Positions 37,820 to 43,746 of a DNA stretch of 64,000 nucleotides are shown one piece after another; within the stretch, counting starts at the first letter, position 1; each line of letters starts with the position of its first letter. The stretch spans positions 1 through 64,000 of the forward strand of contig WFTQ01000025.1 of NCBI GenBank assembly GCA_015485355.1, read 5' to 3'. Under the pieces are notes generated by a model. It was not told the origin of the DNA and did no database searches. It saw only the letters and a list, made by a program, of their open reading frames with translations. The DNA is from a bacterium. Lineage in GTDB: Bacteria > Calditrichota > Calditrichia > RBG-13-44-9 > J042. A program made the position numbers and the translations under genes.

Positions 37820-37844
37820 AAAGCCTTTCAAACGAGGAATGGAC

Positions 37845-38510
37845 ATGAATCGAGTGATTGAAGATTATTTGAAAACCATCTACGATATCCATGCCACAGA
37901 AGGGAAGGTAACGACCACGGCGATTGCTCAGCGGCTGAAAATTGCACCGGCTTCGGTCACCGGCATGTTAAAAAAGCTGGCACGCATGAACCTGGTGCAG
38001 TACGAAAAGTATCAGGGGGTGCGTTTAACGTCGGCGGGGGAACAAATCGCCCTGGAGGTCATTCGTCATCATCGCCTGATCGAGTTGTTCTTGGCCCAGG
38101 CCCTTAATGTTCCCTGGGATCAGGTGCACGAGGAGGCCGAAAAGTGGGAGCATGTGTTATCCGAAGAGATGGAGGACCGGATCGATCGCTGGCTGGGATC
38201 GCCCAAAACAGACCCGCATGGGGCTCCCATCCCCGATAAAAACGGGCATATCGAGGAACCGCCCAAAGTGCGTCTCTGTGAAGTGGTGCCTGTGAGTCGG
38301 GTGGTGGTGGCCGAGGTTAGCGATCACGATCCGGAATTGTTGCGCTATCTGGGCAAACTGAATGTGTATCCCGGAACCTCCCTGGAAGTGGTGCAAGTGG
38401 AACCGTTCGATCGGTCCATGGAGGTGCGCATCGGGGAACAAATTCGGGTACTCAGTGCCCTAGTAACCCGTTGTATCTGGGTTACCGACGTGCAAGCGTT
38501 GGATGCTTAA
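37845..38510 (+). CDS. DtxR/MntR-family metalloregulator
   Basis: IEDYLKTIYDIHATEGKVTTTAIAQRLKIAPASVTGMLKKLARMNLVQYEKYQGVRLTSAGEQIALEVIRHHRLIELFLAQ; C-terminal FeoA/SH3-like region. Confidence 0.93.
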   Translation: MNRVIEDYLKTIYDIHATEGKVTTTAIAQRLKIAPASVTGMLKKLARMNLVQYEKYQGVRLTSAGEQIALEVIRHHRLIELFLAQALNVPWDQVHEEAEKWEHVLSEEMEDRIDRWLGSPKTDPHGAPIPDKNGHIEEPPKVRLCEVVPVSRVVVAEVSDHDPELLRYLGKLNVYPGTSLEVVQVEPFDRSMEVRIGEQIRVLSALVTRCIWVTDVQALDA

Positions 38511-38548: not shown

Positions 38549-39394
38549 ATGGGATTGATCCTACGGCATCATGTGATGGTATCTCTGCTCCGAGGATGGT
38601 TCCGGCATATCGGAAGAAACGTTTTTCTGGTGGGCTGGACGATTGCCCTGCTGGTAACATTCGGGGAAAGTGGGGCGCAGGAGGTATCGCCCATCGTGGG
38701 CGAGCGGCCGGGCTATGGGGAAAGTACCCTGACCGTACCCCCTGGCTTCGTTCAGGTGGAAATGGGGTATACCTTTTTTCGTCAGGATCCGGTGGATCAG
38801 CAGACCATCGGGGAATTATTGATCCGGCTCCCGATCACCCGTCGTGTGGAATTGCGTTTTCTGGGAAATTCGTATCTGGTTCAAAAGTCCAATCGGGGTA
38901 ACCCCGTGCGCGGGTTGGAGGACGCCGGTCTGGGAGTGAAGTTTCAGCTGAGCCGGGCCGAGGGAAGTGCCTTCAACATTTGGAAACCTCAGGCGGCTTT
39001 GTTCCTTAGTACCTCCATCCCCACAGGCAATCGAGCTTTTCGTTCGAACGACCCACAGCCTTCGGTTAAACTGGGGGTGGAATATCCCCTTTCTCATACA
39101 TTGTCTATCACGGGTTTCTGGATTGCGGATTGGATTTCCAGGGACAATCGGTATACCGCGGATTGGTCCGGCAGTCTCTCCCTGGGCATCACCCTGACCC
39201 CCAACCTGGCCGGCTTTATGGAGATGTACGCCATCTTCCCCGGGCGAAGCGGTGAAGGAACCACCGGTTTTGTGGATGGGGGGCTGACCTTTTGGGTGAA
39301 TGACAATCTGGCCTGGGACGCCCATTCCGGCATTCAGGTGATAGGCGCCGGAAGCGGTTTTTTTATTGGCAGTGGTCTGATTGCGCGATTTTAA
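38549..39394 (+). CDS. Secreted beta-barrel (Phenol_MetA_deg/transporter-like) protein
   Basis: Signal peptide, alternating hydrophobic strands, ERPGYGESTLTVPPGFVQVEMGYTF. Confidence 0.6.
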   Translation: MGLILRHHVMVSLLRGWFRHIGRNVFLVGWTIALLVTFGESGAQEVSPIVGERPGYGESTLTVPPGFVQVEMGYTFFRQDPVDQQTIGELLIRLPITRRVELRFLGNSYLVQKSNRGNPVRGLEDAGLGVKFQLSRAEGSAFNIWKPQAALFLSTSIPTGNRAFRSNDPQPSVKLGVEYPLSHTLSITGFWIADWISRDNRYTADWSGSLSLGITLTPNLAGFMEMYAIFPGRSGEGTTGFVDGGLTFWVNDNLAWDAHSGIQVIGAGSGFFIGSGLIARF

Positions 39395-39472: not shown

Positions 39473-40483
39473 ATGAAAGTTAAAAACGTTTTGCCCTATA
39501 TGCCGCTGGTTTGGGTGTGTGCTTGTTTATGGGGCGGCTGGACGGGGTGTAGTCGCAGCGCCTTGGAGCGGGACAATTGGCAGATTCAGCGAAAGGTCAC
39601 CGAAACGGATCCCCTTAAGATCGTGACGACCACCGGGATGATCGCCGATGCGGCTCGACGCGTGGGGGGACGTTGGGTGTCCGTGAAGGCACTGATGGGT
39701 CCCGGAATCGATCCCCATCTTTACAAAGCCCGGGAAGGGGATGTGTTGCTTCTGGCGGATGCCGATTTGATCCTGTTTAATGGGCTGCACCTGGAGGGAA
39801 AAATGACCGATATTTTGAAACAGCTGACCGATTACACCCCCACCGTGCCGGTGGCGGAGGCCATCCCGGAAACCCTGTTAATCTCTCCCCCGGAATATGA
39901 GGGGAATTATGATCCTCACATCTGGTTCGATGTACGCCTGTGGATGATGGTGGTACAAACCATACGGGAGGTATTGATAGAATTGGATTCCCTTCACGCC
40001 CGGGAATATCGCCGGAATGCGGAGGAATATTTGCAGCGGTTGGAGGTGCTTCATCAATATGTCTTACAACGTTCCCGGGAGGTGCCACCCTCCATTCGGG
40101 TATTGATCACCGCCCACGATGCCTTTAACTACTTCAGTCGGGCATATGGGTTTGAAGTAAAAGGATTGCAGGGGATCAGTACAGCGGCCGAAGCCGGCAT
40201 TTCGGATGTGCGCGAGTTGGCGGAATTCATTGTGCAACGGGGCATTCCCGCCGTTTTTGTGGAAACATCGGTGCCGCCCCGTTATATCGAGGCCCTTCAG
40301 GAGGCGGTGCGCGCGCGTGGGTTTGAGGTGCGGATCGGGGGATCTCTCTTCTCCGATGCCCTGGGAAGCCCCGGAACTCCGCAGGGAACGTATCTGGGGA
40401 TGGTGCGCCATAACATCGATACCATCGTATCCGCTTTGTTGTCTCGACCGCTGTCGGTATCATCGCTCTGGGAAAAAAGGTGA
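39473..40483 (+). CDS. Mn/Zn ABC transporter substrate-binding lipoprotein (TroA/ZnuA type)
   Basis: Lipobox [65 protein letters not shown]. Confidence 0.93.
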
Positions 40484-41265
40484 GGAGAGCGACCATGGCA
40501 GACGTCCGGAACAGCGGCCCGATGGCCGTCGAAATAGAGGATTTGACAGTGGCTTATCAGCAACAACCGGTTTTGTGGGATGTGGATCTGCGCATTCCCC
40601 GGGGAGTGCTGATGGCTATTGTCGGACCCAACGGGGCGGGGAAAACGACACTGATTAAGGCGGTGTTGGGGCTGGTCAGACCCCTGGCCGGGGAGGTGCG
40701 CATCTTTGGAAAACCCTATAAGGAGCAGCGTCAGCGGGTGGCCTATGTGCCGCAGCGCAGCAGTGTGGACTGGGATTTCCCGACCACGGTACTGGATGTG
40801 GTGATGATGGGCCGTTACGGCCAGCTGGGTTGGTTTCGGCGGCCGGGCAGGAGGGAGCGCCGGCTGGCCATGGCCGCACTGGAAAAATTAGGCATGCAGG
40901 CCTTTGCCGAGCGCCAGATCAGCCAGCTGTCCGGTGGGCAGCAGCAACGGGTGTTTCTGGCCCGCGCATTGGTTCAGGATGCCGATGTGTATTTGATGGA
41001 TGAACCCTTCCAAGGGGTGGATGCTACCACAGAGCGCGCGATCGTGACCCTGTTGCAGGAGCTGAGTCGGCAGAAAAAAACCGTCGTGGTGGTGCATCAC
41101 GATCTGCAATCGGTACCGGATTACTTCCACTGGGTGGCATTGTTGAATGTGAGGGCCATTGCCAGCGGACCGGTCGATCGAGTGTTTACCCTGGACAATT
41201 TGAAAAAGACCTACGGAGGCCATCTGGTGTGGATCGAAAAAGAGGCCCTGGCCGGAAGCGATTGA
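40480..41265 (+). CDS. Metal ABC transporter ATP-binding protein
   Basis: [43 protein letters not shown]. Confidence 0.95.
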
Positions 41266-41476
41266 TACGGACCCTTCGAAACGATGGTAGACCGGGGAGG
41301 CCCGGGGCCCAGCCGAACGTTCCCCCGTGGAAACAGGTGGGGGATGGGGTTTGAACCGTGTATCGGCCGGTGGCTCGGGGGAACCACCGCCAATGGATAC
41401 TCCAGGGGACAATGAAACGGTGCCGGGTGGAAGAATGAAAACGGGTTTCTCACCCGCAAATGACGGATAAAGGGCT

Positions 41477-42613
41477 ATGGAATTGTTGCAGACCATCGGG
41501 ATCGTGTTCGGGGACTACACTCTGCGCACTGTTTTATTGGGGGCCTTGATCTTAGGCGGGGTGAGCGGCGTTTTAGGAGCGCTGGCGTTGCTGCGCCGCC
41601 AGAGTCTGCTGGGGGACACCATCTCCCATGCGGCTTTGCCCGGCATTGCCATGGCCTTTTTGTTAAGCGGATCGAAATCGTCTCTGGTGCTGCTGAGCGG
41701 AGCCGCCCTCTCCGGCTGGCTGGCGACGCTTTTTATGCTTCAGGTAGTGCGAACCTCACGGATCAAAGACGATACCGCCCTGGGGTTGGTATTATCGGTG
41801 TTTTTCGGTTTTGGACTGGTATTATTGACCTTTATCCAGAAACGGCCGGATGCAGCCCAAGCGGGTTTAGACAAATTCCTTTTCGGGCAGGCGGCCACCC
41901 TGATGGCCGAAGACGTGACGATTATGGCCTGGTTAAGTGCCCTGGTATTTGTTCTGGTGGTGCTGTTCTGGAAAGAGCTTAAAGTCTATTTGTTCGATTC
42001 CGGATTTGCAGAAAGCCTGGGGTTCCCGACCCGGTGGCTGGATATCCTCTTGCTGTCTTTGCTGGTCATTACCATTGTCATCGGATTACAGACGGTGGGG
42101 GTGGTTTTGATGAGCGCCATGGTGGTGGCGCCGGCCGCCGCGGCCAGACAGTGGACCCATCGTCTGGAGCGAATGGTATTGTTGGCCGGGCTGTTTGGGA
42201 TGTTCGCCGGAGTCAGCGGGTCTCTGACCAGTAGTCTGGTGCCCCGATTACCTACCGGTCCAACCATTGTGGTGGTGGCCACGATCATGGTCCTCTGTTC
42301 ACTCCTGTTTGCCCCCGCCCGGGGCATTCTCTGGAACCGGTTTCGATTGAAACGGCAACAAAAATCCATTCAGGTTCATATTGCTTTGCTGACTCTACTG
42401 GACTTGGCGGAACATCATCGCGATTACAGGCATCAACACTCTCTGGAGGTTGTGCGGGCTGTATTACCTCGCACGACGCATTTAAGCCGAACGTTGAAAG
42501 AATTGGAAGAGAGGGGGTGGATTACGGTGCCGCGGAAGGGATTTGTGGCCTTGACGGCCCGGGGGGTTGAGGTGGCCCGCCGCTTTCGTGAAAACCAGGA
42601 GGTCGCCGGATGA
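41477..42613 (+). CDS. Metal ABC transporter permease (ABC-3) with C-terminal winged-helix domain
   Basis: ABC-3 membrane domain LLGDTISHAALPGIAMAFLL; last ~89 aa soluble wHTH-like HIALLTLLDLAEHHRDYRHQHSLEVVRAVLPRTTHLSRTLKELEERGWITVPRKGFVALTARGVEVA. Confidence 0.9.
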   Translation: MELLQTIGIVFGDYTLRTVLLGALILGGVSGVLGALALLRRQSLLGDTISHAALPGIAMAFLLSGSKSSLVLLSGAALSGWLATLFMLQVVRTSRIKDDTALGLVLSVFFGFGLVLLTFIQKRPDAAQAGLDKFLFGQAATLMAEDVTIMAWLSALVFVLVVLFWKELKVYLFDSGFAESLGFPTRWLDILLLSLLVITIVIGLQTVGVVLMSAMVVAPAAAARQWTHRLERMVLLAGLFGMFAGVSGSLTSSLVPRLPTGPTIVVVATIMVLCSLLFAPARGILWNRFRLKRQQKSIQVHIALLTLLDLAEHHRDYRHQHSLEVVRAVLPRTTHLSRTLKELEERGWITVPRKGFVALTARGVEVARRFRENQEVAG

Positions 42614-43746
42614 ATGTGCTGCAACTGGAAATCCAGCTGGTGGCGGTGGTTGTGGCCGTCGCCTGTGCCCTGCCGGGCACCTTTCTGGTTTTGCGGAAAA
42701 TGGCCATGATGAGCGACGCCATCAGTCATTCCATCTTGTTCGGTATTGTGGTGGCCTTCTTCTACACCCGGGATCTGTCTTCTCCGTTACTCGTGTTGGC
42801 CGCCACGGCTACCGGGGTGTTGACCGCGTTCATGGTGGAATTGTTGTTGAAATCCCGAAGAGTGGGCGAAGACGCCGCGATTGGATTGGTGTTTCCCTTT
42901 TTATTCAGCATGGGGGTGATTTTGATCTCTCGCTATGCGGGCAATATTCATCTGGATACCGATGCGGTATTGCTGGGGGAGATTGCGTTTACGCCGTTCG
43001 AACGCCTGAAGCTGGCGGGACTGGATTGGGGTCCCCGGGCCCTGTATCTGATGGGAGGGATTCTGCTTCTGAATGGTTTATTCATGGGACTGTTATACAA
43101 GGAGTTGAAGCTGGCCACTTTTGATCCGGCGCTGGCGGCGGCGCTGGGATTTTCCCCGGCACTGGTGCACTATTTGCTCATGGGGATGGTCTCCTTGACC
43201 GCCGTGGGGGCTTTCGATGCCGTGGGATCCATCCTGGTCATCGCCCTGATGATCGGCCCTCCGGCGGCGGCTTATCTATTAACCGATCGCCTCTCCCATA
43301 TGATTCTCCTGAGTGCGGGGATCGGAAGCCTGGCCTCCATTGGAGGCTACTGGATGGCTCACGGGTTCAATGCATCCATTGCCGGTTCCATGGCCACCAT
43401 CATCGGGGTCGTTTTCCTCCTGGTTTATTTATTGGCCCCTCAGCGCGGGGTGTGGGCGATGTACCGCAAACGTCGACAACAACAGCTGGAAACCGCCGTA
43501 TCCCTGCTGCTGGTGCATGTGTTCAGCCATCAGCATCAGCTGGATGCCCGGGAGGAGTGTCATGTGGATCATTTGTACAATCACCTCAAATGGGATTTCC
43601 GCTTCACCCGCCGGCTCATCCAGCATTGCCGGAAAGAGGGATTGGTGTCCCTTCGGAAAAATCTGCTTTACCTGACCCCCAAGGGACAGGCGCATATCCA
43701 TCGGGTGGTCGGCCTGAGGGATATGGGCGAAGGTGCCGCCCGGTAA
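42610..43746 (+). CDS. Metal ABC transporter permease (ABC-3) with C-terminal winged-helix domain
   Basis: MMSDAISHSILFGIVVAFF membrane domain; C-terminal FTRRLIQHCRKEGLVSLRKNLLYLTPKGQAHI wHTH-like. Confidence 0.9.
   Translation: MNVLQLEIQLVAVVVAVACALPGTFLVLRKMAMMSDAISHSILFGIVVAFFYTRDLSSPLLVLAATATGVLTAFMVELLLKSRRVGEDAAIGLVFPFLFSMGVILISRYAGNIHLDTDAVLLGEIAFTPFERLKLAGLDWGPRALYLMGGILLLNGLFMGLLYKELKLATFDPALAAALGFSPALVHYLLMGMVSLTAVGAFDAVGSILVIALMIGPPAAAYLLTDRLSHMILLSAGIGSLASIGGYWMAHGFNASIAGSMATIIGVVFLLVYLLAPQRGVWAMYRKRRQQQLETAVSLLLVHVFSHQHQLDAREECHVDHLYNHLKWDFRFTRRLIQHCRKEGLVSLRKNLLYLTPKGQAHIHRVVGLRDMGEGAAR

Follow-up and report, generated by a model that had tools for sequence, protein, structure and literature searches.

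Truncated DtxR-like winged helices on both ABC-3 permeases of a Calditrichota TroABCD-type operon: a candidate cytosolic metal gauge

Within the window (the whole 64,000-nucleotide stretch of Calditrichota DNA analyzed here), a gene cluster encodes, in order, a DtxR/MntR regulator, a putative outer-membrane protein, a binding lipoprotein, an ATPase, and the two permeases C and D (Table 1). The stand-alone regulator, the presence of which the initial annotation had correctly recorded, comprises a winged helix-turn-helix (wHTH), a metal-binding/dimerization domain, and an FeoA/SH3-like domain. The otherwise tight cluster is interrupted by a 211-base gap (41266–41476) between the ATPase gene and that of permease C, in which neither a second operator nor a long reading frame was found; the two permease genes share 4 bases (ATGA). 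A pattern search of the 3.44-Mb genome for TTTAGGN4CCTAAA returned one exact copy, and because this sole exact palindrome lies just upstream of dtxR, the cluster is most likely under ordinary DtxR/MntR control. The free DtxR and the adjoining palindrome can explain control of the operon unaided. The operon would represent a TroABCD-type importer of Mn, Fe, or Zn under its own DtxR/MntR repressor, resembling the Treponema TroABCD-TroR system in that its binding protein is closest to TroA and its regulator, like TroR, is of the DtxR type. Treponema TroD measures 366–367 aa and TroC 298–304 aa (PMC2628430); compared by length alone, these proteins fit a tail on D only, TroC being too short to carry one.

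Table 1. Coordinates of features in the metal importer cluster (positions are those of the window).
Feature	Position	Strand	Basis or remark
DtxR/MntR-type operator-like palindrome TTTAGGACAACCTAAA	37768..37783	.	genome pattern search
Stand-alone DtxR/MntR-family regulator	37839..38510	+	PF01325, PF02742, and FeoA
Putative outer-membrane protein	38549-39394		between dtxR and binding lipoprotein; read from sequence
Metal-binding solute-binding lipoprotein, TroA-like	39473..40483	+	best solved match TroA, E 1.8e-92
ABC ATPase subunit	40480..41265	+	P-loop and ABC signature read from sequence
Permease C, ABC-3 transmembrane part (residues 1-285)	41477..42331	+	PF00950
Tail C (residues 286-378), basic linker and winged helix	42332..42610	+	stop codon 42611-42613
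Tail C His314 (42416-42418) and His321 (42437-42439), invariant; His319 (42431-42433), common	42416..42439	+	
Tail C helix 3, recognition helix position (residues 336-345)	42482..42511	+	poorly conserved
Permease D, ABC-3 transmembrane part (residues 1-280)	42610..43449	+	PF00950
Tail D (residues 281-378), basic linker and winged helix	43450..43743	+	stop codon 43744-43746
Tail D His303 (43516-43518), His307 (43528-43530), and Glu316 (43555-43557), invariant	43516..43560	+	
Tail D helix 3, recognition helix position (residues 330-342)	43597..43635	+	basic here, not in family

Both permeases (ORFs 41477–42613 and 42610–43746, 378 aa each) belong to the ABC-3 metal permeases; PF00950 matches permease C over residues 14–278 (E 5e-73, 246 bits) and permease D over residues 10–274 (E 3e-44, 152 bits), in each case above the cut-off (20.1) and over the length of the model. 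Past the last transmembrane (TM) helix, C continues for 93 aa and D for 98 aa, in agreement with the approximately 90 extra soluble residues assigned to each permease in the initial annotation, the quoted peptides of which are exact. These tails are real additions, as ABC-3 frames without a tail in Chloroflexota genomes typically span about 285–310 aa. By the positive-inside rule, the charge of their basic linker (about +4.4) is consistent with tails that lie in the cytoplasm. Comparison with the congener L062 (82% identical) gives a dN of 0.28 in both tails and 0.07–0.09 in the TM parts, such that the tails evolve 3–4 times faster, with a dS of 1.55 in tail D and saturation in tail C. Both tails are under purifying selection and are constrained.

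AlphaFold2 models, built from small alignments and with each tail as a single chain, confidently predict a winged-helix fold for both tails (pLDDT 88.7 and 84.3), with a long helix 1 followed by helix 2, helix 3, a wing, and helix 4. Foldseek searches with both tails returned structures of MarR, MntR, DtxR, and IdeR, at E-values that were modest (0.004–0.04) and probabilities close to 1, together with winged helices from enzymes (methyltransferases). No confident Pfam or NCBIfam domain was recovered for either tail: PF01325, the Pfam model of the DtxR wHTH, matched neither, the Pfam matches consisted of generic wHTH models alone, weak and all below cut-offs, and sequence searches against solved structures also gave weak matches. 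Profile–profile comparison aligned the entire tail D with single-TM membrane-anchored DtxRs (E 2.2e-10) and matched it to the free DtxRs of the same loci (E 1.2e-5); the corresponding values for tail C were 6.8e-7 and 1.3e-4, and the two tails matched each other at E 1.1e-4. An unrelated GntR winged helix, used as a single-sequence control and in that respect weaker than a profile control, gave E 0.07. A direct search matched residues 262–370 of P0002 to the anchored DtxR of L059 (E 5.9e-5).

The metal-binding/dimerization domain PF02742 is absent from both tails, as had been claimed at the outset, and present in P0003 and in a Calditrichota relative, G025. In the latter, both permeases (433 aa) are fused to a wHTH and PF02742 (E 9e-15 and 1e-15), and the DtxR metal ligand residues are kept (HRLWE, H, EH). 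Judged by sequence kinship, tails C and D are descendants of the DtxR family, and they are best read as truncated DtxR fusions because of their profile kinship to DtxR and the untruncated double fusion in G025. Together with the winged-helix models, these data bear out the DtxR-like wHTH character originally ascribed to both tails.

Fusions of permeases with repressors have been reported from 11 phyla (PMC5599777), and in Chlamydia YtgC/YtgR an ABC-3 permease carries a C-terminal DtxR-derived domain (PMC5599777; PMC6504234). The permeases of the window share this arrangement within one frame. However, YtgR keeps its metal-coordinating residues, is cleaved off, and works as a repressor, whereas in the window both subunits retain the wHTH alone, the invariant His/Glu residues are different ones, and a free DtxR is present. 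The fusions of G025 and of L242/L243 have the same fusion point as the tails of the window, in G025 on both permeases, but the metal/dimer domain of DtxR is still present in them, as are its ligands; L243:2075–3826 is a complete fusion, a single frame of 584 aa that joins an ABC-3 permease to a full-length DtxR/MntR. No description of truncated tails or of double fusions was found in the literature searched, and the truncated, His-bearing, often paired form of the tail appears to be undescribed.

Two further groups of proteins were observed. Single-TM membrane-anchored DtxRs of about 340–365 aa (L140:1885–2916, L162:6423–7439, L163:2305–3384, L244:6342–7439, and L059:246–1292) have a TM helix that ends like the last ABC-3 permease helix (FRPxxGL), followed by a DtxR wHTH, a metal/dimer domain in which the ligands are kept, and FeoA domains; that of L140 lies directly downstream of a tailed permease D. 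These proteins could be true membrane-tethered regulators. A second, single type of ABC-3 permease in Calditrichota (L015:954–2336 and L032:1459–2940) carries a C-terminal extension of about 150–200 aa that matches no Pfam model and includes a His-rich stretch; this extension is unrelated to the tails.

Tails at the same position recur in dozens of other genomes. At E 1e-3, the D-tail profile found matches in 58 of the 301 Chloroflexota genomes sampled; 54 of these matches fell below 1e-19, and at least two of the other, weak four are anchored DtxRs rather than permeases. In a wider sample the profile matched 31 of 385 genomes; tailed D permeases are also encoded on named plasmids of Paracoccus aestuarii and Deinococcus. 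Among 74 complete C–D pairs from Calditrichota and Chloroflexota, nearly all picked for carrying a tail, such that the counts are not population frequencies, 39 carry a tail on both permeases and 35 on D only. On a tree of the TM parts, made by a quick method and containing some long branches, the double-tail state requires 6–9 changes and is strongly clustered. An apparent loss of tail C in G013 was rejected as an assembly frameshift, the tail being present in another frame. The paired arrangement is established across a large clade, but the D tail is the wider feature.

The strongest constraint on the tails, unnoticed in the initial annotation, falls not on the recognition helix but on histidines elsewhere. 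The most conserved columns of tail C are His314 and His321 (100% each across 22 non-redundant sequences), and an H-x6/7-H pattern occurs in every truncated tail C. In tail D, the top four columns are Trp328, His303, His307, and Glu316 (all 100% across 51 non-redundant sequences), with Cys, Asn, or Ser at position 317. The pattern H-x3-H-x8-E was recovered in 74/74 Calditrichota and Chloroflexota D tails, with 5–9 residues allowed before the Glu and with the untruncated G025 tail counted through a chance match elsewhere in its longer sequence. Beyond these, 14 of another 19 truncated D tails carry it, among them that of Paracoccus. The tails retained in three copies from Deinococcus and in two other genomes lack the motif, which is therefore not needed for tail persistence. 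On the Deinococcus plasmids, the genes of the tailed D permeases without it (L222:3947–5026 and L223:3947–5038) are overlapped or immediately followed by a second DtxR-like regulator gene, a short one. In both tails, the conserved His/Glu residues rank above all recognition-helix columns, and the conserved histidines sit at the junction of helix 1 and helix 2. Part of the conservation of tail D is structural, as the invariant Trp328 is no metal ligand.

The conserved histidines suggest that what is built into the transporter is a metal gauge and not a gene switch held at the membrane. A regulatory metal domain is favored because the candidate ligands are kept, the reading helix is not, and the DtxR metal domain is gone; tentatively, then, the tails may be cytosolic metal-binding domains that regulate transport. 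Each permease would end in a cytoplasmic winged helix derived from a permease–DtxR fusion minus its metal-binding/dimerization domain, and the invariant His/Glu, as candidate ligands, would form metal sites. Remaining attached to the permeases, the tails would sense metal in the cytosol and respond by slowing the transport cycle, an instance of trans-inhibition and not of DNA-binding repression. In MetNI and ModABC, cytosolic add-on domains trans-inhibit uptake when substrate is plentiful (PMC10710835). The likeness of these domains to the tails would be one of working only: their folds are unrelated to those of the window's tails, and their position on the ATPase subunit, not on the permease, would by analogy count against a metal gauge here. 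Of the metal site that marks trans-inhibition by an add-on domain, the tails present invariant candidate ligands alone.

The main rival to a metal-sensing role is a FeoC-like role in stability, in which the tails, much as FeoC does with FeoB, would help to assemble the transporter or to protect it by contacting the ATPase, one another, or a partner, and the His/Glu residues would serve packing or an interface with no metal sensed; we regard this as possible but somewhat unlikely. FeoC is itself a winged helix. This small cytosolic protein acts on a metal importer at the protein level and shields it from FtsH (PMC10710835), though it differs from the tails in being a separate protein, with an Fe–S cluster and a different transporter, and the likeness drawn here is one of role. 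A structural role is consistent with the invariant Trp328 and the conserved hydrophobic positions beside the His residues, with the persistence of the Deinococcus tails without the motif, and with the enzyme winged helices among the Foldseek matches. However, two to three fully conserved His/Glu residues clustered near one junction, in both tails, exceed the usual needs of packing.

A DNA-binding role, with the paired tails acting as a membrane-tethered or YtgR-like cleaved regulator that couples transport state to transcription, appears improbable. DtxR descent, the wHTH fold, and the Chlamydia precedent with cleavage (PMC5599777; PMC6504234) are compatible with such a role. The helix 3 of the window's tail D is moreover unusually basic (+5), as it also is in the congener, and nucleic-acid binding by tail D is therefore possible in this organism. 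Across the family, however, helix 3 columns are mostly variable, and the mean charge is −0.05 in tail C and +0.8 in tail D, as compared with +1.3 in free DtxRs; the conserved DNA-reading helix that is a trait of DtxR/MntR proteins is replaced in the tails by one that is near-neutral and poorly conserved. A DNA-reading role is disfavored because a domain that reads DNA would be expected to retain the helix with which it does so. The loss of the dimerization domain, the 35 of 74 operons with a tail on D only, and the free DtxR beside the genome's only exact palindrome likewise argue against it, and with it against the paired, membrane-tethered heterodimeric sensor originally proposed.

That the tails are vestigial, decaying and functionless leftovers of old permease–DtxR fusions, was rejected as highly improbable on the grounds of selection and conservation, for although they change faster than the TM parts and the tree shows several changes in the presence of tail C, purifying selection acts on them, their His/Glu residues are fully conserved over many bacteria, and their predicted fold is intact.

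Control of TroABCD-type Mn and Fe importers is thought to be mainly transcriptional. It is conceivable, if doubtful in its full breadth, that a DtxR repressor domain has here been converted to a cytosolic metal gauge, in which paired His/Glu winged helices bind metal and gate transport, and that these constitute an undescribed family of regulatory domains in Calditrichota, Chloroflexota, Alphaproteobacteria, and further bacterial families. The families observed here can be read as an evolutionary series from free DtxR, through the permease–DtxR fusion, to the truncated His-bearing tail. If true, a metal gauge of this kind would provide many bacteria with a second, fast control at the protein level, made from a recycled gene repressor.
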